From positions 6,490,301 through 6,554,300 of the forward strand of contig CM030848.1 of assembly GCA_018105865.1 (NCBI GenBank): DNA of 64,000 nt, in the 5' to 3' direction. Each line of letters begins with the position of its first letter. The stretch's first letter is position 1. The notes below the pieces were generated by a model. The model saw nothing but the letters and a program-made list of their open reading frames with translations, ran no database searches and had not been told where the DNA came from. Of this stretch, positions 4,922-30,597 are shown one piece after another. Source of the stretch: Metaphire vulgaris. Lineage: Eukaryota > Annelida > Clitellata > Crassiclitellata > Megascolecidae. The translations under genes were made by a program, and so were the position numbers.

Positions 4922-5760
4922 ATCTTATTCTGCTAAAAGATTGCTTCACCTACAATAGTTGACTAACTGAAGCAAAAACTAAAACAAAATATAATATTAA
5001 AGTTCAGAAAATGTTTGATAATCAGGTGAATAATCTCCAGTGTCCATAAGTTATAATTTATCTGGTTAGTCCCTGCTTAATTACTGTATTAACTACAAGG
5101 ATAGACTCTATAGACCAAAGTGCAAAATTAGTTGCTGACCAAGATCAGCCAAAAGACCATGCAGAGGAAGTTACGATGAACTTTCACAAAATCATTGAAC
5201 TTGTCATACAGACGTAGAGGTCGTTCGACTTCGCACGTTCTACTGCATTAGCGTCATCATAAGTGGGGGCATGTTGGATTTGCCGGTTAAGGTCGACCAT
5301 ACTAGGGGGTCTTAATTTTAGATTTGACTTTTATTTGTCGAGCTGGGAGGCATATCTCTTACTGGCCCAAACATAGAAAGAACTTCCACTGAACACCTAT
5401 TTGGCACCTTTGAGAAATGTGTTCCAACTTCCAAAGGACATGGCGCCGAGAAGGAGCGAGGGGCAAATGCACAGGGGTCTGGCGGCCTGTATATAGGGGC
5501 CCGAAACGGTGACGATGTTGTGTTTTAAATATAGCCTGAATCCTGAAAAAGACTGATAGGCAAAAAGGCCATCTTCGTCATGAGCACAGATAGGCCCATC
5601 ACAGGGGACCGGCGAATGTCAGAGGGCCCGGGCCAATCATGTATTAACTAACATCCTGAAAAAGACCGACAAGCAAAAAAGAGGTCATCAACAGTTTTTT
5701 CATATTTGTTAGGGGCCCGTGACTACCTTTTGCACAGGGGCCCGGAATTTCTCTCGGCGG
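4922..5760. repeat. Unclassified repetitive non-coding stretch
   Basis: No gene seen. Between about 5460 and 5760 the phrases GGGGCCCG, CAGGGG(A/T)C and ATCCTGAAAAAGAC recur two or three times, and GACAAGCAAAAAAGAGGTC (5668-5686) is a reverse copy of the internal motif found in several MITEs. It looks like eroded, overlapping MITE copies without clear ends. Confidence 0.45.
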
Positions 5761-5984
5761 GCCTAGCAAAGGAATACGGGATACACCTTAATATGCTTGG
5801 GTGTAGGCCTAATCGTTGTGTAGAATGAGTTTCAGCTGTAACATGCTTCAATCATTGTCTGCAAGTTGCTCACTCGTATTTTTAGCAATGTATCGATAAT
5901 ATATTTCTCAAAACTAGACTTCATGTAGACCGATAGGTACTAGCTTGTACTTGTGCAGGGTTCGGCGCTGATCTTCGTGTAGCC

Positions 5985-6245
5985 TACTAGGCAAGTCAGC
6001 GACGCAGGTGACTTACGTCAATTAATCTGTGGTAGAGCAGTTTGCCGTTGCCTTTTTCAGAGCCGCGTTTTACCTCCACAGCTCGACGCTACAACCAATT
6101 TGTACACGCCTAAGTGATGAACGTCTTGGTTGGCCCCCGGCACCACGACCCACGACTCGATCCCGGGACGGTACCCATCCAAGTATTAACCACACTCGAC
6201 GTTGCTTAACTTCGGTGTTCTGACGGTAACCAGTCGCACAATGTC
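5985..6245 (-). repeat. 5S-rRNA-derived SINE
   Basis: Read on the minus strand, about 6165-6225 contains GAAGTTAAGCAACGTCGAGT and TGGTTAATACTTGGATGGG, close to the internal promoter region of animal 5S rRNA (GAAGTTAAGC ... GTTAGTACTTGGATGGG). The rest is not 5S-like, so this fits a 5S-derived (SINE3-type) SINE better than a functional gene. Part of the body (5985-6060) is repeated at 42355-42430. Confidence 0.65.
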
Positions 6246-6262
6246 AAGTAGGCCGACTAGAT

Positions 6263-7657
6263 CAGGGCAGGGATATTTTTACACCCCCCTAAGATCCTCT
6301 ACGCCCCCCAATTTGAGGCCGACACCCCCTAATTTGGTAATGTGACAATGGTATGCATACAAAATGCATACTAATTAGCTCCGGACACCCCAATTTGAGG
6401 TTGACAACGACACCCCCAATTCACAATCCTAGAAATTACCCTGGTTCAGGGTTTTCCAAACATTTTGGGTTTTGTAACGTACTGCGGTTTTGTAAAGTAC
6501 CGCGGCCCTATTCATAACATGTAATATAAAATGCATTAGGCCACCTGGCGAACGTTAGTTGAAAAGAAACTTTTGAGTTTTGAATAAATGGCAAAACAGA
6601 AGCTCTGATTCAAATTGAATGAAAATATGGCAAATATATTAGGCAGAAATATCATATTTTTGCCAAATAAGACGAAAGGAGAAAAATATATACTAAATTT
6701 TTTGAAAATTATCTTTTTAAAATTCTGTCAGGAATATACCTTTCTTACGAGTCTTAAAAATTCTATGAGTATGGCAAATTCGTTAAACCGACAAGTATGC
6801 TATACTGTATATATCCAATCAATATTGTAGAGATTCCCTATTGTTTTTGGAGTTTCACAGCAAAATGGTCGGAAAACGCTTTCCCTGCGTTAATCATGCT
6901 ATACCTCGCCATATTAAGAACCGTATCAATTTTCCTAGTTTTTAAGATCTCGATAAAAGACTTACTTCTCACTTTAGCTTGGAAATTTTTTATGTCAAAA
7001 CTTCTCAGTTACCTATTTGTGTTGTCATTTAACCTAGCCATGTTAATCCCTTTATTTTAATGTTTGTATCTTCTTCAATATCATTGTTAATTTTCTCATT
7101 GTTATGTGAAATAAGTAATAGCTAGTTATGGAAGTCCTCTTGATTCTTGATCATAATTATAAAGTGATTATGTAATAATGTGACATTATAGATTAACCAA
7201 TTATCAGGATCCTAGGATCCCTTATAGGTTAATCTTGCTTTGTTTCCGTAGGCATATGGTAATGTTATTTGTTTAGTTATTTGTGAACAAAGTAGTCTTT
7301 TTCATTTTCAATTAAGTACTTTTTTTTGTAATCCGATTGATGACTACTGTCTGCTTTACTTTGGAAATAAATTCAATTGTGAAATAAGATTACATTTTAA
7401 TAGTGCGTAACGTGGTGGCCCTGCAAAAATATTGTCAACTAAAATTGAATAAAACACTAATCATCTTAATACAAGCCTTGTATAGAGGATCGCAGGCATA
7501 TAAGTTTCTTAAAACCTAAGCCTACTTGCAATTTTCAAGCCTTGTGACATTGTGGTATTGGTTCGAAAATGACACATTTGAATACAATTTCGCGCTACCC
7601 CTCAACCCACCTTTGGGTCGCGACCCATAGTTTGGGAAACACTCAACTTTACCACTG
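6263..7657. mobile_element. Non-autonomous hAT element, about 1.4 kb
   Basis: Ends CAGGGTTTTCCAAAC (split by a nested MITE) and GTTTGGGAAACACT...CACTG. The 8-bp TSD GACTAGAT is exact (6255-6262 and 7658-7665). A second copy, inverted and shorter, lies at 39239-40093 and matches at both ends and in the GGGTCGCGACC segment. No transposase is recognisable; the short AT-rich frames at 6615-7060 are not supported as genes. Confidence 0.82.
6268..6443. mobile_element. hAT-type MITE, family D, nested
   Basis: Ends CAGGGATATTTTTAC and GAAATTACCCTG with TSD GATCAGGG/GTTCAGGG (7 of 8). The TSD contains the first CAGGG of the larger hAT element, so this copy inserted into that element's left end. Relatives: 14211-14398, 27035-27236 and 50715-50881. 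Confidence 0.85.
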
Positions 7658-8022
7658 GACTAGATAATAGATTATAGGGCATAGGCCCTATGTGCAGCAG
7701 ACTAAATAATGCCAATTACAGATAGGGTAATGACTTAATAGCACAAACAATAGTGACAACACAATTTATTTAAGACATATTGTCATTTTTATTACATCAA
7801 ATAAGCAACATTCTAACAGAAATTAATGTCAATTAATGAATTATTAACAACAAATATAATTAATGACAACACAAATACATTGAAGACATACTGTAATTTT
7901 AATTTTGCCAAATAAACCAAACACCTATAAAGCATTTAGTCCATAATTGTTCTGTGGATAAGACAAAATTGTCTTAACACTTAAAACTACTTTCTGTCCG
8001 CTGAATCAAAGTCACATTTGTT

Positions 8023-9182
8023 TCACTTTTGCTCTGAGCTAGCTCCTGGAGTCGAGCCAGAAGGTGGAAGAGAATCAGTGTCCATTCGTTCAATAGCGAT
8101 GACTCTTTCGTCCTTCTTCTCCGGGACAGCTTTCTTTGGAGCAGTGATTGCAAGAATTCCATCGCCGCTTAGAGAGGATTTCACCGTGTCTGGATCAACA
8201 TCGCTTGGAAGAACGTATGTTCTACGGAATTCCCTCTGAATGAATCCATGTTCATCCGCTTGTTCTTCATGTTTTCCGTGGATTATGACTCGGTTGTCGA
8301 TGGTTCTGATTGACAACTCTTCTGGCTTGAAATGACTCACATCGAGGCTCACATGAAAAGTTTTGTCGGTATTAGCAACCTGTAAATATAATTAAATCGC
8401 ACATAAATAATAAAAAAAACTACAGATGAATTACAATATTAGGCTCCACTGTGTTATCTGTAAATTAAGCAATCAAATTCCCTGAAATAGCCTAAATAAA
8501 TGTTTTGCAATTGTACAACACGACAATCACACAATGGCCACAATTCACCAGCAATGGAGGCAAGGAACATTATTTTGTCTTACAACCTGCTGTTATTGCT
8601 AGCTCGTCTGTCCCATTACACTGCTAAGCAGTTACTTTGACCCCATTATTTTTTTGGAAAAACTGAATAGTAATGAGACAATGCCCTATCATCAAAATGA
8701 AAATATATAAGAACTATTCCATTTGACGGAATCCCAAGTTCACAATCCTAGAAATTCCCTGATATACAATTATCAATAAATTGACTTTAGGTAAAATAGA
8801 CGTTACATCAAAACGAAGATACAATAAAAACATAATCCCATAAGCAATATATAATATATGACATAATGTAAGCAAATATATCTTAAACTTTAAAGGACTC
8901 AAACTTTAAAGGACTCAAATTGACATCAAATCGCCTAACGCATACCTCGCTAACGCCTGATGCCCGTTGAGTTGGCTGCTTCTTAGGTCTGACTACGATG
9001 CCCCTCCACAGCTGCGGCGGAAGGAGGTCGTCGTCGAGCATCCCGAGTCCGAAATGCTGGTCGAAGAGTCTCGGTGGGCGAATGATGTCACGGTTCCATG
9101 GCTCGCTCCACAGATCCCAAGGAACGAACGATTGGCGACGATACAAAGGGTTGTCGTATAGCGTCAAATAATGTCCGGCCAT
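8023..9182 (-). CDS. Small heat-shock protein (alpha-crystallin family), copy 1
   Basis: ATP-independent chaperone that holds unfolding proteins, normally as a cytosolic oligomer. Two coding exons: 8946-9182 (79 codons, starts MAGHYLTLYDNPLYRR) and 8023-8379 (118 codons plus stop). The donor GAG|GTATGC and acceptor TTTACAG|GTTGCT join in phase 0, giving about 197 residues. Exon 1 is the Trp/Pro-rich N-terminal arm. Exon 2 is the alpha-crystallin domain: SLDVSHFKPEELSI, VIIHGKHEE, REFRRTYVLP, then SGDGILAITAP and an I-x-I-type tail in RVIAIER. Heat-shock-element and TATA-like motifs lie upstream. Copy 3 encodes an almost identical protein; copy 2 is broken. Family and exon structure are clear; the exact orthologue is not. 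Confidence 0.93.
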
Positions 9183-9211
9183 GTCAACCGCTGTCTAGTT
9201 GATTTGTTCGT

Positions 9212-9365
9212 AGAAGACTTCTAGAAGTGGATTTCTCAGCTCCAGTGACTTTAATTAGGTCTCCTCAGCTCCAAGTCGCTTTGGCCAATGCCTCGTGGCA
9301 GGCGCTTTTAAATCTCTCCCGCGAAAGAACGCGAAATATCTGGAACATTCCAAGCGATTCGAGAA
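9212..9365 (-). promoter_or_regulatory. Heat-shock promoter of copy 1
   Basis: GAACATTC (9343-9350) and TTCGAGAA (9358-9365) are two perfect inverted nGAAn units of a heat-shock element, upstream of a TATA-like TTTAAAA (9306-9313). A third cluster, GAAGACTTCTAGAAG (about 9212-9228), lies in the likely 5' UTR. Presumed target of HSF1. Transcription would start near 9275-9285. Confidence 0.72.
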
Positions 9366-12977: not shown

Positions 12978-13583
12978 GTAATATCGATTCACGACCTACA
13001 GATGATGCAGTGCATTGAACAGTGTTGTTCATTGTTTTTTCTTAGTCTAGGCCTACTCTATAGTACTGTAGTGTAGTATAGCTCTAGTCTAGCCATAATA
13101 ATTCACAATGAACTGGACAGTGGACTTGTGGAGTGGGTGCATTGATCACGGAAACAATCTCCCGTATTTCGACTTTGGATATCTGGTAACCCTACCTGCG
13201 TCCCACCTTTAGGTCGCAACCCAGTTTGGTCACACTGGACTATATTATAGGGTATGGGTCCTATGTGCAGCAGACTAAATATGGCTAATGTCAATTCATG
13301 ACTTAATAGCACAAACTGTAGCGACAACACAATTTATTGAAGACATATTGTCATTTTTATTACATCAATTAATGAATTATTAACAACAAATATAATTACT
13401 GTAATGACAACACAAATACATTGAACCATAACCATAATTAATGACAACATAAATATACTGTATTTAAGACCTACTGGAATTTTAATTTTGCCAAATAAAC
13501 CAAACACCTATAAAGCATTTAGTCCACAAATGTCTTAACACTTAAAAATACTTTCTGTCCGCCGAATCAAAGTCACATTTGTT

Positions 13584-14900
13584 TCACTCTTGCACCGAGC
13601 TAGCTCCTGGGGTCGAGCCAGAAGGTGGAAGAGAATCAGTATCCATTCGCTCAATAGCGATCACTCTTTCTTCCTTCTTCTCCAGGGCAGCTTTCTTTGG
13701 AGCAGTGATTGCAAGAATTCCATCGCCACTTAGAGAGGATTTCACCGTGTCTGGATCAACATCGCTTGGAAGAACGTACGTTCTACGGAATTCCCTCTGA
13801 ATGAATCCATGTTCATCCGCTTGTTCTTCATGTTTACCGTGGATTATGACTCGGTTGTCGATGGTTCTGATTGACAACTCTTCTGGCTTGAAATGACTCA
13901 CATCGAGGCTCACATGAAAAGTTTTGTCGGTACAGTATTAGCAACCTGTAAATATAATTAAATCGCACATAAATAATAATAAAAAACTACAGATGAATTA
14001 CAATATTAGGCTCCACTGTGTTATCAGAGTCAAAGGCTAAATAAAGAAGCAATCAAATTCCCTGAAATAGCCTAAATAAATTTTTAAATTGTACATCGAC
14101 AATCACCCGATGGCCACAATTCACCAGCAATGGAGGCACGGAACATTATTTTCTCTTACAACCTGCTGTTATTGTGGGCTCGTCTCTCCCATTACACAGT
14201 TACTATGACCCATGGATATTTTTACTCCCCCAACCCCTTCCCCCCCAACCACCTCCCCCATTTGAGGTCGAAACACCCCTAAATTTGGTAATGTGACAAT
14301 GGTATGCATACAAAATGCATACTCATTAGTTGCGGACACCCCCTCTATTCCATTTGAGGTCGACACCTCCCAAGTTCACAATCCTAGAAATATCCCTGAT
14401 ATGACCCAACTAACTTTGGGAAAAACTGAATAGGCCTAGCCCGAATAGACGCTATCATCAAAACGAAGATGGAAGAACTTTACGGAATAAACGCAACAAT
14501 TGCCATACAATTATCAATAAATTGATTTCTGTAAAAGGGTGTTGCAAGCATATAATAAAGCATAACATAAGCAATATATAATGTACAACATAAGCAAGAA
14601 TATATTAATGGACTCAAATCGACGAGTTCAGGCAATTATAAAATTTTAAAGAGCATAGGTTACCTCGCTGACGCCTGATGCTCGTTGAGTTGGCTGCTTC
14701 TTAGGTCTGACTACGATGCCCCTCCACAGCTGCGGCGGAAGGAGGTCGTCGTCGAGCATCCCGAGTCCGAAATGCTGGTCGAAGAGTCTCGGTGGGCGAA
14801 TGATGTCACGGTTCCATGGCTCGCTCCACAGATCCCAAGGAACGAACGATTGGCGACGATACAAAGGGTTGTCGTATAGCGTCAAATAATGTCCGGCCAT
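13584..14900 (-). pseudogene. Small heat-shock protein copy 2, frameshifted
   Basis: Exon 1 (14664-14900) is intact and encodes the same 79 residues as the other copies, with donor GAG|GTAACC. Exon 2 (13584-13945) has the complete alpha-crystallin frame, but 5 extra bases at 13931-13937 (TACAGTA where copies 1 and 3 have TA), 8-14 bases inside the exon, shift the frame. With the conserved acceptor the product would stop after 11 codons of exon 2, about 90 residues with no chaperone domain. In the restored frame a TAA lies between acceptor and insertion and no later AG could rescue it. The domain sequence itself is not decayed, so the lesion is recent, or an assembly error. Confidence 0.85.
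14211..14398. mobile_element. hAT-type MITE, family D, in duplication copy 2
   Basis: CATGGATATTTTTAC to GAAATATCCCTG with TSD CTATGACC/ATATGACC (7 of 8). It lies in the heat-shock intron. Copy 3 has it at the same place (27035-27236); copy 1 looks empty there (about 8635-8650), although copy 1 holds a 30-bp remnant of the same MITE end at 8733-8762. Confidence 0.78.
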
Positions 14901-14929
14901 GTCAACCGCTGTCTAGTTGATTTGTTCGT

Positions 14930-15083
14930 AGAAGACTTCTAGAAGTGGATTTCTCAGCTCCAGTGACTTTAATTAGGTCTCCTCAGCTCCAAGTCGCTTT
15001 GGCCAATGCCTCGTGGCAGGCGCTTTTAAATCTCTCCCGCGAAAGAACGCGAAATATCTGGAACATTCCAAGCGATTCGAGAA
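14930..15083 (-). promoter_or_regulatory. Heat-shock promoter of copy 2
   Basis: GAACATTC (15061-15068) and TTCGAGAA (15076-15083) with a TATA-like TTTTAAA at 15024-15030, in the same layout as copy 1. The promoter looks intact although the gene is frameshifted. Confidence 0.68.
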
Positions 15084-24852: not shown

Positions 24853-26412
24853 CCCACCTCCCACCAAGAATTCCTGGTACCACCACTGCATGCTGCCACT
24901 AATGCTCTTGTCCATAACTTAGGCATGGAAAATTTGTGTGGTTTAGTCAGTCACAGAACAGCAGAGAACAGGAACTTAGAGGCAACCGGCCCAGCAATTG
25001 TCATACAAGGCACCACAGAGCTTCGAGATAAATTTGACGACAATTTCCGAGACTATGTGCAATGAGTTCAAAGAGTGAAAAACATCAAACTTGAGTGGTC
25101 ATAAATCAAGACACTGTAGCTGGAAGAAAAATTGGGAAGAAGCTAGCTCACAATTTGAAAGTTGATGGAAGACTTCTTAAGCAACTCGAGCATTTGAAGA
25201 GTTACAGTGGACCCTTTACCTTGTGCGATGGAAATGATGAGTACCTGCAGCAAGGAGCCTTATCTGGTCAAGTAAAGAAGACAAGGATGAAGATGGAAGT
25301 CCAATACAGCAGTGATAGCAGCCTGTCGGTGCCCGGTAATAATCCAGTGTTTCAAATTCGTCATAAGAAAGGCAAGGAACTGACAGCAGAAGAATTTGGA
25401 AACAACGTGAAGCTCTGATTGCCAAGAAGTGTTTTACGTCCAAATGAACTGTATCAATATCTGCGTTTGTGTCTGCCATTAACTGAATAACTATTTTACT
25501 ATAACATTTTAATTATATTCTCCAAATAAAACTGATAAATACTTCTTTAAATAAGAAAATGTGTATAGTCTATACTAAACGTCGGACAAATGTTTCGAGT
25601 AATGCAATAAGAGGGTGGGCTTGTCAAAATGCCTTCTGGGCTGATCTAAAAAATGATCTTGTTTTCGATCCAACTTTTCTCTTCCATTATACATGCAGGA
25701 GCAATGGAAAAATATTACACCCAACTTTTTAATTTATCTGCACACCCCACTTAGGACTCATTAGAAGGTCTATAATAATAATAATATTATTATTATAACT
25801 AGTTCATAATATTAATTCATTACATGCAGATGATGCAGTGCATTGAACAGTGTTGTTCATTGTTTTTTTCTAGTCTATACTCTATGGTACTGTAGTATAG
25901 ATCTAGCCATAATAATTCACAATGGACTGGACCGTGGAATGGGTGCATTGATCGTGGAAACAATCTCCCATATTTCAACTTTGGATATCTGGCAACCCTA
26001 CCTGCGACCCACCTTTGGGAAGCGACCCACAGTTTTGGAAACACTGGAATAGGGTATAGGGCTATAGGCCCTATGTGCAGCAGACTAAATAGGCCCAATG
26101 TCAATTAATGACATAATAGCACAAACTATAACGACAACACAATTTATTGAAGACATACTGCCATTTTTATTACATCAAATAAGCAACATTCTAACTGAAA
26201 TTAATGTCAATTAATGAATTATTAACATCATAAATAATGACAACACAAATACATTGAAGACATAACCATAATTAATGACAACATAAATATATTTAAGACA
26301 TACTGGAATTTTAATTTTTCCAAATAAACCGAACACCTATAAAGCATTTAGTCCACAAATGTCTCAACACTTAAAAATACTTTCAGTCCACCCAATCAAA
26401 GTCACATTTGTT

Positions 26413-27742
26413 TCACTTTTGCTCTGAGCTAGCTCTTGGGGTCGAGCCAGAAGGTGGAAGAGAATCAGTATCCATTCGCTCAATAGCAATGACTCTTTCT
26501 TCCTTCTTATCCAGGGCAGCTTTCTTTGGAGCAGTGATTGCAAGAATTCCATCGCCGCTTAGAGAGGATTTCACCGTGTCTGGATCAACATCACTTGGAA
26601 GAACGTACGTTCTACGGAATTCCCTCTGAATGAATCCATGTTCATCCGCTTGTTCTTCATGTTTTCCGTGGATTATGACTCGGTTGTCGATGGTTCTGAT
26701 TGACAACTCTTCTGGCTTGAAATGACTCACATCGAGGCTCACATGAAAAGTTTTGTCGGTATTAGCAACCTGTAAATATAATTAAATCGCACATAAATAA
26801 TAAAAAAACTACAGATGAATTACAATATTAGGCTCCACTGTGTTATCAGAGTCAAAGGCTAAATAAAGAAGCAATCAAATTCCCTGAAATAGCCTAAATA
26901 AATGTTTTTCAATTGTACATCGACAATCACCCGATGGCCACAATTCACCAGCAATGGAGGCACGGAACATTATTTTCTCTTACAACCTGCTGTTATTGTG
27001 GGCTCGTCTCTCCCATTACACAGTTACTATGACCCATGGATATTTTTACTCCCCCAACCCCTTCCCCCCAACCCCTTCCCCCCAACCACCTCCCCCCATT
27101 TGAGGTCGAAACCCCCCTAAATTTGGTAATGTGACAATGGTATGCATACAAAATGCATACTCATTAGTTGCGGACACCCCCTCTATTCCATTTGAGGTCG
27201 ACACCTCCCAAGTTCACAATCCTAGAAATATCCCTGATATGACCCAACTAACTTTTGGAAAAACTGAATAGGCCTAGCCCGAATAGACGCTATCATCAAA
27301 ACGAAGATGGAAGAACTTTACGGAATAAACGCAACAATTGCCATACAATTATCAATAAATTGATTTCTGTAAAAGTGTGTTGCAAGCATATAATAAAGCA
27401 TTATAACATAAGCAATATATAATGTACAACATAAACAAGAATATCTTAATGGACTCAAATCGACGAGTTCAAGTAATTTATAAAATTTTAAAGAGCATAG
27501 GTTACCTCGCTAACGCCTGATGCTCGTTGAGTTGGCTGCTTCTTAGGTCTGACTACGATGCCCCTCCACAGCTGCGGCGGAAGGAGGTCGTCGTCGAGCA
27601 TCCCGAGTCCGAAATGCTGGTCGAAGAGTCTCGGAGGGCGAATGATGTCACGGTTCCATGGCTCGCTCCACAGATCCCAAGGAACGAACGATTGGCGACG
27701 ATACAAAGGGTTGTCGTATAGCGTCAAATAATGTCCCGCCAT
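26413..27742 (-). CDS. Small heat-shock protein (alpha-crystallin family), copy 3
   Basis: Exon 1 is 27506-27742 (79 codons) and exon 2 is 26413-26769 (118 codons plus stop), joined in phase 0 through GAG|GTAACC and TTTACAG|GTTGCT to give about 197 residues. It matches copy 1 except for a few residues in the C-terminal tail (for example ALDKKEERV for AVPEKKDERV, and TPRASS for TPGASS). The alpha-crystallin core SHFKPEELSI ... REFRRTYVLP ... GDGILAITAP is unchanged. Frame and splice sites are intact, so it should encode an active chaperone. Promoter elements resemble those of copy 1, but the 5' UTR element is partly deleted. Confidence 0.93.
27035..27236. mobile_element. hAT-type MITE, family D, in duplication copy 3
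   Basis: Same insertion as 14211-14398 (same flanks CTATGACC/ATATGACC), with one extra CCAACCCCTTCCCC unit. Shared by copies 2 and 3, so it was inserted before those two separated. Confidence 0.8.
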
Positions 27743-27779
27743 GTCAACCGCTGTCTAGTTGAATTGTTCGTAGAAGTGG

Positions 27780-27910
27780 ATTTCTCAGCTCCAGCGACCT
27801 TAGGTCTCCTCAGCTCCAAGTCGCTTTGGCCAATGCCTCGAAGCAGCTGCTTTTAAATGTCACCCGCGAAAGAGCCCGAAATATCTCGAATATTCTAAGC
27901 GATTCGAGAA
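27780..27910 (-). promoter_or_regulatory. Heat-shock promoter of copy 3
   Basis: GAATATTC (27888-27895) and TTCGAGAA (27903-27910) form a heat-shock element upstream of TTTTAAA (about 27851-27857). The GAAGACTTCTAGAAG cluster seen in copies 1 and 2 has lost its first half here. Confidence 0.67.
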
Positions 27911-28557: not shown

Positions 28558-30597
28558 TCTAAAATGAGGACTCGATGGGCCACAGTGAAATTGTATTCGT
28601 CGGTATGTTGTCCTGTGAGAATGAGGATAGCCTTTCATGGATGTTTCAGACCCTACGAGCGCGGAACGCCGACATGGATCGTGTGCGGGTCATAGTTACA
28701 GACAAGGATCTGAAGGAACGCCATGTGCTGCGCCAGTGTTTCCCAAACAGTTGCCTTCTTCTGTGCCTGTTTCACACACCACGAGCATTCAGACGAGAGG
28801 TCACATGTGAAAAGATGGGTATATCTGCGGGTCAACGGTTGCTCTGTCTAGAACTGCTGCAAAAGTTAGCTTATGAACGAAGTGAAGTGGCATATGAAGA
28901 TCTGTATGAACAGTTAAAAAGAGATGCACCGCACACAGTTGTTCGTTATTACAACGACAACTGGCACGACATTCGACGGGATTGGGTCATGGCGTTTACA
29001 TTGCAAGTGGGAAATTTCTTGAACACTACAAGCAACCGCATTGAAAGTATAAATTCAAAGTTAAAATCTGTTATTACTAAATTCAGTAGTTTAGAGGAAT
29101 TCTTGGATAAATTGTATGTCATTATTGATTCAATGAAACTTGAGAGAGACAGTAAGACAGCCAATCACTTCTTAAAAGTCAGTACTTCTGCAGCCACATC
29201 TCTTGAAGTGCTACTCTATTGCAGTATGGTCGGCTTCTGACTCCATATGCAGCTGAGTTTGTTCGGGGTCAGCTGAACAAAAAGGATCAAGTGGTGTTGC
29301 ATGAAGTAGTGGAAGATGAGCTATCTACTGTTGATTTCCATGATTCTCTCATTGAGGTGTCAGCAAGTGAGTGCTCATGTCCCTTTAGGAAGTCAATGCT
29401 GCTACCATGCAACCACATTTTTGCCGTTCGCCAGAAGCTGTCTGTGGATCTTTTCAGCGCGTCGCTATGTGATCGTAGGTGGCACACTGATTACTTGAAA
29501 GCTAACGGGCGAGTTTTTACACAGCTTTCTCAGATGTCAGATATTCCTGTTCGACCGTCAAATGAGGATGAAGGACTTTTCGGCTTGACACTGCAGTCAA
29601 AACTGACCAGGTCCAAACACGCAATAACAGGACCACAAAAAGTACAAATTGGATTGCAGTATGGTGTCGCACTTGCTAATCTACATGCTGATGTTGGTAC
29701 GGCTGAATTTTCTGAATGGGTGGAAGTATACAAACAGCTTGAGCGCTTGTGGCAAGGTGGGAAACGTGCTGCTGTCATCGAGTTAGTTGCTGATGCGTCT
29801 TCGGATACAGCACAAGGTGCCGGAATAAGAGTAGAAGTAATACAAAATGGAGTACCGACAACTGGCTACAAATCAACCTCGCTTGAACCACATCTGGAAG
29901 CCGATATACTGGATATGGATGACGCAGATGAACGTCAAGGAATTGTTCTGATGGATATCGATCAACATCTTCCTGTTACAGAACGTGACATGACTGACCA
30001 TGCTGATGTACTAGATGGTTAGTAGTTAGTTAGTAGAACGTGATGTTGTCTATTTGAATGTATTGTTTGCATGTTGTAATGAGTCAATAACATTGTTTAA
30101 CTTTGTGCCTTAAACTTGCATAATCTTTCTTTTTTTGTAGGTTAGTGATTGAGCTAGCTGATGTACTTGTATTCTAAGCACAAGGTAGCTGTCTTTAATA
30201 TTGAAGACTCATAATCCAGTGTCTGTACTTTGCATGTCACAGGTGATGTTGGAAATGATGATGGCACTGAATGTCCACGCACCACACCAGATGTGGCAGA
30301 AGTTCAAACCAGGCTGCAATCAGTTAAAGGTGACACGAAAATCTTAACACAATAAAGTGTCTTTGTGTCTACGGACAATTTATGTTGCATTGCCGTATGT
30401 AAGTGTGCAACTAGCGTTTTATTGGTTTGCACTGGCATGATACAAAAGCTTATTCTATGTAGGTATCAAATTGCCCCCTCGCATGAAGCAATGCGGTCGC
30501 CCAAGAGGTCAGGAAATGACAGCCATAGGCCTGCCAAAGCAACGGAGAGGTGATCGCATGGTACCATTCGCCAAGTTACCATCTTCGAAAGAGAAGA
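28558..30597 (+). pseudogene. ZSWIM/MULE-type transposase-derived gene, 5'-truncated, SWIM finger intact
   Basis: Exon 28558-about 29206 encodes the transposase-like core: MGHSEIVFVGMLSCEN, VRVIVTDKDLKERHVLR, CLLLCLFHTPRAFRREV (the CxxH of Mutator-like transposases) and NRIESINSKLKSVI. The frame shifts near 29206-29219; comparison with the copy at 20239 suggests 11 extra bases. It continues to 30017 with a complete SWIM finger, CSCPFRKSMLLPCNH (C-x-C-x9-C-x-H). Exons 30243-30329 and 30463-30597 follow in phase (phase-1 introns with GT/AG), the last with a basic PPRMKQCGRPRG segment. The FAR1-like N-terminus is missing because the left end abuts heat-shock copy 3. A host ZSWIM-like gene or a domesticated transposase remnant; the frame break makes function doubtful. 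Confidence 0.7.

Follow-up and report, generated by a model that had tools for sequence, protein, structure and literature searches.

The window, by which we mean the whole stretch of 64,000 nucleotides analysed here (C17:6490301-6554300 of Metaphire vulgaris), contains three duplicated units. Each carries a small heat-shock gene (hsp20) on the minus strand, and a domain search matched PF00011 in all three. The closest named protein belongs to another earthworm, Carpetania matritensis (75% identity). Copies 1 and 3 each hold a two-exon frame of 197 residues. The units are a mosaic, in which copies 1 and 2 are 99.5% identical around exon 1, while copies 2 and 3 are 98.7% identical in a stretch of the intron. 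Judged from the alignment, this alternation of closer and more distant stretches would be as expected from gene conversion. An open reading frame with a MULE transposase / ZSWIM1-3 RNaseH-like domain (28575-29237) lies shortly past the portion of unit 3 that can be aligned with the other units. The genome searched comprised 728.3 Mb in 246 contigs. The published assembly of this species, assembled from Nanopore contigs with short-read polishing, is given as 728.6 Mb in 280 scaffolds and is described as highly heterozygous in the accessible text (PMC7666815). The features are listed in Table 1.

Table 1. Positions of the hsp20 units, the scars and related sites, and two resident elements (window positions unless a genome piece is named)
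Feature	Position	Strand	Remark
hsp20 unit, copy 1 (aligned part)	7900-9242		
hsp20 unit, copy 2 (aligned part)	13461-14960		
hsp20 unit, copy 3 (aligned part)	26290-27802		
Copy 1, exon 2	8023..8379	-	empty site TA at 8370-8371
Copy 2, exon 1, coding part	14664..14900	-	ATG to GCGAG/GTAACC donor (slash, splice point)
Copy 2, exon 2	13584..13945	-	frame shifted at scar 3
Copy 3, exon 2	26413..26769	-	empty site TA at 26760-26761
Scar 1, TACTGTA	13397..13403	.	past 3' end of copy-2 frame; 5-bp gain, absent from copies 1 and 3
Scar 2, TACTGTA	13456..13462	.	5-bp gain relative to copy 3 (TA at 26290-26291); the 5 bp likewise lacking in copy 1
Scar 3, TACAGTA	13931..13937	.	nucleotides 9-15 of copy-2 exon 2; frameshifting 5-bp gain relative to copies 1 and 3
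TACTGTA in copy 1	7889..7895	.	not a scar: point change relative to TACTGGA in copies 2 and 3
TAGGCCTA in copy 2	13048..13055	.	TATA in copy 3; candidate GGCC-class scar
Tc1-type element	L036 548-2310		perfect inverted ends next to TA
Element of the second TA-CAG family	L040 1717-3117		perfect inverted ends next to TA

The first-pass annotation had reported that copy 2 reads TAC(A/T)GTA (hereafter TACWGTA) at three places where a sister copy has plain TA, and had attributed these sites to the excision of Tc1/mariner-type elements. A coordinate check confirmed the letters at 13397-13403, 13456-13462, and 13931-13937, as well as plain TA at 7861-7862, 26290-26291, 8370-8371, and 26760-26761. In a base-by-base comparison of the three units, all three 5-bp gains were unique to copy 2. 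The sites at 13931 and 13397 have plain-TA homologues in copies 1 and 3, and the site at 13456 has one in copy 3. Both sister copies read GTCGGTATTAG at scar 3. At scar 2, copy 3 reads AAATATATTT and copy 1 reads AAATACATTG, which likewise lacks the 5 bp and has CA, plain TA being found there only in copy 3. At 13397, a local tandem duplication caused the whole-unit alignment to open larger gaps; when copies 2 and 1 were aligned locally at scar 1, 55 letters were identical and the only gap was one of 5 bp. The residues are CTG, CTG, and CAG, each between duplicated TA, and the proposed form of TA plus CAG or CTG plus TA is borne out. A genome-wide search for the exon site (flanks of 11 letters with 0-5 bp allowed between them, a pattern that cannot catch an occupied site) found three places, namely, two empty sites and copy 2, which is five bases longer (27 bp).

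The third scar was also said to shift the frame just inside exon 2, and this agrees with our gene model. Joining exon 1 of copy 2 (14900-14664) to exon 2 (13945-13584) gives a frame of 90 residues, compared with 197 in copies 1 and 3, with a stop at 13910-13912. The HSP20 domain of copy 2 is still open, but out of frame (ORF 13584-13913). In this model, scar 3 would truncate the hsp20 frame of copy 2.

Other differences between the units were inspected. When copies 2 and 3 were aligned by BLAST, four 5-bp gaps appeared: two are CTG/CAG scars, a third reads TA-GTG-TA, and the fourth lacks the TA form. A TACWGTA at 13064 had been flagged as an exact gain and was rejected, the site being common to copies 2 and 3 with a gap nearby. 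The three scars lie within 541 bp of copy 2 and none occurs in its sisters, and we counted this tight cluster against an origin by excision. Local hopping, which would here involve hops of 60-500 bp, may account for it; approximately 80% of Sleeping Beauty re-insertions in frogs fell within 3 Mb in the portion of the report available (PMC3271037).

We consider the three TACWGTA sites to be footprints left by the excision of CAG-ended cut-and-paste transposons of the Tc1 type, with a probability of about 0.86. This reading is based on the exact gains from TA to TACWGTA, which the sister copies lack, on an allelic pair, on a genome-wide excess of the word, and on resident elements with TA-CAG ends; the last three are described below. 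Elements would once have sat at the three sites, at which no element is seen in the one genome available. Each would have inserted at TA and duplicated it. On departure, three end letters would remain with the flanks, CAG on one side and CTG on the other. The two 3-nt ends would pair apart from the middle letter, and repair would retain either CAG or CTG, giving TA-CAG-TA or TA-CTG-TA with a net gain of 5 bp. These steps are those of excision and repair by Sleeping Beauty.

The same 7-bp product, the TA duplication, and the 3-nt core characterize Sleeping Beauty, for which TAC(A/T)GTA is given as the excision footprint in the accessible text of two papers (PMC3432063, PMC4378557). The present scars differ in being natural ones in an annelid, in which the resident elements are Tc1-like. 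Sleeping Beauty itself was not upheld as a named source: PF25787 scored 24.0 bits in L036 and 27.7 bits in L032, below the cut-off of 43, and these elements may be called Tc1-like only. Natural footprints of the Tc1/mariner superfamily were likewise recognized through empty sites in gene copies for a Stowaway MITE in the beta-amylase genes of Triticeae; the excerpt describes several residues (TA...GTA and four others) at one locus, whereas two fixed words were counted genome-wide here (PMC1925063). A genome-wide survey in rice also used homologous comparison to score sites that DNA transposons had left empty. According to the portion consulted, 8 of its 94 excisions were perfect and the rest left deletions or filler, whereas only short fixed scars were sought in the present study (PMC4423477). 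No paper on Tc1 excision in earthworms was found in the open literature searched.

The window contains exactly 26 TACWGTA sites, the number counted by hand in the first-pass annotation. The excess over expectation, put there at twofold, is approximately threefold by dinucleotide shuffling (8.6 expected, sd 3.0, largest 17 in 100 shuffles). The window was rejected as a hotspot of the word, since 22.6 sites are expected at genome density. The genome count, which had been proposed as a check, also gave an excess. TACWGTA was found 257,567 times in 728 Mb, more often than every control motif counted (159,853 for the reversed ATGWCAT, 81,873 for TAGWCTA, and 120,468 for ATCWGAT). The density is 354 per Mb, approximately threefold the roughly 111 per Mb in mouse if the mouse genome is taken as 2.7 Gb. 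Over 300,000 TAC(A/T)GTA sites are stated for mouse in the text available (PMC4378557).

Model-based expectations were obtained from a 264-kb sample consisting of the window and 20 pieces chosen by place (L009-L028). The sample contains 90 TACWGTA sites against 36 expected under a second-order model (2.49x) or 58 under a fifth-order model (1.55x); scaled to the genome, the excess is approximately 158,000 or 97,000, respectively. TACWGTA had the largest z (8.9) among the 32 TA-NNN-TA classes and, level with TCGWCGA, the top second-order ratio among the 64 W-centred 7-mer palindromes. Some of these sites are not scars: 3 of the 90 are MITE ends, 4 lie in another repeat, 2 are in a satellite in L015, and several are in (TA)n. 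The flanks were also compared, in a set from which 13 sites in (TA)n were dropped and which includes eight genome pieces (L001-L008) fetched because they hold TACWGTA. T stood at +3 outside the word in 47% of 178 half-sites, compared with 32% around all TA, which we counted in favour of an origin by excision. The same preference appears around TACSGTA (46%) and ATGWCAT (43%), which we counted against it.

Pairs of short and long forms were also sought between presumed alleles. Contig C47 (700 kb) is collinear with scaffold C18, with ~98% identity at both places tested, and is presumed to be the second allele of this region; a segmental copy would be the alternative. The L045/L044 pair (6,242 aligned bases, 80 substitutions) contains one 5-bp and two 6-bp indels among those longer than 4 bp. 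The 5-bp indel is TA/TACTGTA, with plain TA in C47, and is thus an allelic pair of the kind that the excision account had called for. Both 6-bp indels are TA/TAGGCCTA. An additional 7-bp indel, of neither scar form, lies in a piece of the alignment outside this count. The TA/TACTGTA pair is the only TACWGTA event and the sole 5-bp indel counted in ~11 kb of allele pairs. Neither scar was present as an indel in the L037/L038 pair (4,835 bases, 21 substitutions), and no scar indel was listed among the subtelomeric copies L041-L043 (99.2-99.5% identity).

A self-comparison of the sample flagged exact gains at 4 of 20 TACWGTA sites and at none of 53 sites of seven control motifs. On inspection, two of the four were false and the other two were the window's own, leaving none outside the window. 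Of the two false gains, that at 13064 is described above, and that at L015 7600 lies in a satellite with ragged indels. In another self-comparison, 4 of 44 distinct 5-bp gains had the TA-NNN-TA form, the residues being AAG, ATG, and, at the window's own sites, CTG and CAG. The tandem satellite of L015 (~5900-8090) contains many small indels and is a source of false scar pairs.

The scars had been taken as the fossil of an otherwise invisible family. This part of the proposal did not hold, because Tc1-type elements with TA-CAG ends reside in the genome. A model of the Tc1-type HTH gave 95 matches genome-wide, 88 of which exceeded the curated cut-off; many lie in open frames. Perfect inverted ends adjoining TA were found in L032, L036, and L041-L043 (CAGCTGTGTGAAAAAGTCCTGCAC) and in L040 (CAGTACTGGCCAAATTATTATGG), and near-perfect ones in L035 (CAGTCCC...); of the first eight transposase loci, only some gave recognisable ends. 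TA-CAG ends occur together with a DDE transposase in L032 and L036, in both of which DDE_3 and the Tc1 HTH scored over the cut-off. In L036, these domains lie in an open transposase frame of 413 residues with a mechanically assigned TTG start. In the window, where the first-pass annotation had stated that no element is left, four of the five TA-CAG ends tried were unmatched, and the remaining end gave a single match with 5 edits.

Exact 20-letter ends of the first TA-CAG family (TACAGCTGTG...) number 371 genome-wide, and those of the second family, that of L040 (TACAGTACTGGCC...), number 92. Among 100 listed ends of the first family, we found 32 close pairs, 26 with a spacing of 223-243 bp, 4 with one of 1.72-1.77 kb, and two single pairs, at 314 bp and 884 bp. 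The pairs at 223-243 bp correspond to a MITE of ~235 bp. A pogo-type DDE_1 model matched 133 times in the genome. Pogo-type elements can also have CAG ends and are possible further sources of scars.

Ordinary repair or replication slippage, through short duplications with filler, might have produced TACWGTA by chance, with the genome excess as an effect of composition. GTA-CA-GTA may be read as a duplication of GTA plus filler, the fifth-order excess is only 1.55x, and some TACWGTA arose by point change (7889) or lie in MITE ends, satellite, or (TA)n; the TA-GTG-TA gap between copies 2 and 3 also suits slippage. However, the three sites share one kind of core between duplicated TA, the sole 5-bp indel counted in 11 kb of allele pairs is again TACTG, and TAGWCTA, equal in composition, has only a third as many occurrences genome-wide. 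We regard this explanation as improbable. The opposite polarity, in which the long form is ancestral and a deletion between the TA repeats later produced plain TA, appears more improbable still. TA-NNN-TA is a short direct repeat that could collapse by slippage, and the allelic pairs have no outgroup; however, neither sister has the 5 bp at any of the three sites, and one gain is therefore simpler than two losses, unless gene conversion moved a loss between copies 1 and 3. Deletion also leaves the genome-wide excess of the long form unexplained.

Another source of the excess might be intact ends of Tc1-type elements or MITEs, in which CAGTA follows TA, rather than scars at empty sites. The L040 family, with its 92 exact ends, starts with TACAGTACTGG and a MITE in L019 starts with TACAGTAGAAC, and the three MITE ends of this kind and the four sites in another repeat among the 90 of the sample point in the same direction. 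Nevertheless, the flanks of most of the 90 sites are mutually unlike by inspection, and the two families counted amount to 371 ends, which lack TACAGTA, and 92 ends, not 10^5. Intact ends also leave the paralogue and allele pairs unexplained, and we consider this the least probable of the explanations weighed here. We conclude that excision of Tc1-type elements is a well supported reading of the three sites. The scars may have built up recently and in large numbers.

The more surprising lead is a second word, TAGGCCTA, which is stronger than TACWGTA and was absent from the first-pass finding. It occurs 140,140 times in the genome compared with 5,394 for the reversed control (~26x), and 48 times in the 264-kb sample, where 2.1 (order 2) or 6.2 (order 4) would be expected. 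On inspection, most of its flanks in the sample are unlike one another, except for a paralogous pair (14431/27269). In the L045/L044 pair of presumed alleles, it stands against plain TA at two places, with TA duplicated and a plain-TA homologue present. The difference between copies 2 and 3 at 13048 could reflect either a loss of 4 bp or a single departure repaired in two ways. The 24 one-letter neighbours of the word were seen 146 times against 126 expected, and the word itself 96 times against 4.3 (sample, both strands). Since the neighbours show little excess, decay of the TAGGCCTA sites appears slight, of the order of 3%.

The two classes share TA in TAGGCCTACWGTA more often than expected (4,061 against ~1,319), and TAGGCCTAGWCTA was found 275 times against ~419 expected. 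C or T is preferred beside TAGGCCTA, which partly accounts for the sharing of TA between classes. Repeats of the same class sharing TA were also frequent (814 against ~360 expected and 3,260 against ~1,200 expected); the reversed control for the latter count was 1,650, which indicates that tandem effects contribute.

An inverted-repeat scan of 364 kb revealed no convincing GGCC-ended element, and such an element may be rare or lost; one match lay inside a larger inverted repeat (L023) and two were weak (L044 and L045). Harbinger elements have a TWA target and a GG(G/C)CC end in the text available (PMC4423477). Harbinger was rejected as the origin because both short alleles read GTAAG and the long ones lack a TWA duplication. 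Passer, of the pogo superfamily, targets TA and leaves footprints of 0 to 4 bp, a range that includes a 4-nt GGCC residue (PMC9976928). However, no GGCC residue is among the footprints reported in the excerpt of that paper (PMC9976928), and no source element was found here. Searches of the open literature for TAGGCCTA with transposon and terminal inverted returned no paper, and the 15 examined among 182 papers containing the word were, by title, on other subjects. A scar class of the form TA-GGCC-TA is without description in the literature searched.

We speculate that TAGGCCTA is perhaps a 4-nt relative of the Tc1-type scar, from an element without a match here. Four self-complementary end letters would allow the broken ends to anneal perfectly, leaving one uniform GGCC scar. 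In its full form, with odds that we consider to be roughly even, this proposal holds that TA-GGCC-TA is a second TA-duplicating scar class, ~134,000 of which formed within one to a few % divergence and are still segregating, that the element is rare or gone, and that the genome would be a record of very large recent hopping by at least two TA-targeting groups. If these sites are scars, their ratio to surviving elements is extreme.

The allele pairs contain three scars of both classes per 101 substitutions. Compared with the excess density of the two classes, and to an order of magnitude only, this would place their build-up at ~1.1-1.3% divergence, from three events only (1.3% as computed and 1.1% using the fifth-order excess). 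The estimate is compatible with the little decay seen in TAGGCCTA. The best reading is that the scars fit a large genome-wide set, which is partly recent and partly still segregating. If this is true, words of 7 and 8 bp, countable in one assembly and checkable between alleles, record past hopping without surviving copies, and one scar turned a copy of a stress-response gene into a truncated frame. TAGGCCTA is so over-represented, and so little decayed in the sample, that its source should be findable. The number of transposition events that leave no element becomes a directly testable question.

Other TA-NNN-TA words were also enriched in the 264-kb sample, including TAGCCTA/TAGGCTA (2.67x) and TAACCTA/TAGGTTA (2.37x), an enrichment that we counted against an origin of the TACWGTA scars by excision. 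TA-GGC-TA might be related to the GGCC scar, as a form with a residue of 3 nt. A 4.9-kb stretch with Tc1-type ends is near-identical (99.2-99.5%) in L041, L042, and L043, which are located close to the end (C28) or the start (C40, C41) of their contigs. L023 holds a 960-bp inverted-repeat element (5328-6287) with perfect 20-letter ends, CAGGGTGAACAAGTAAAAAC, adjoining TA.
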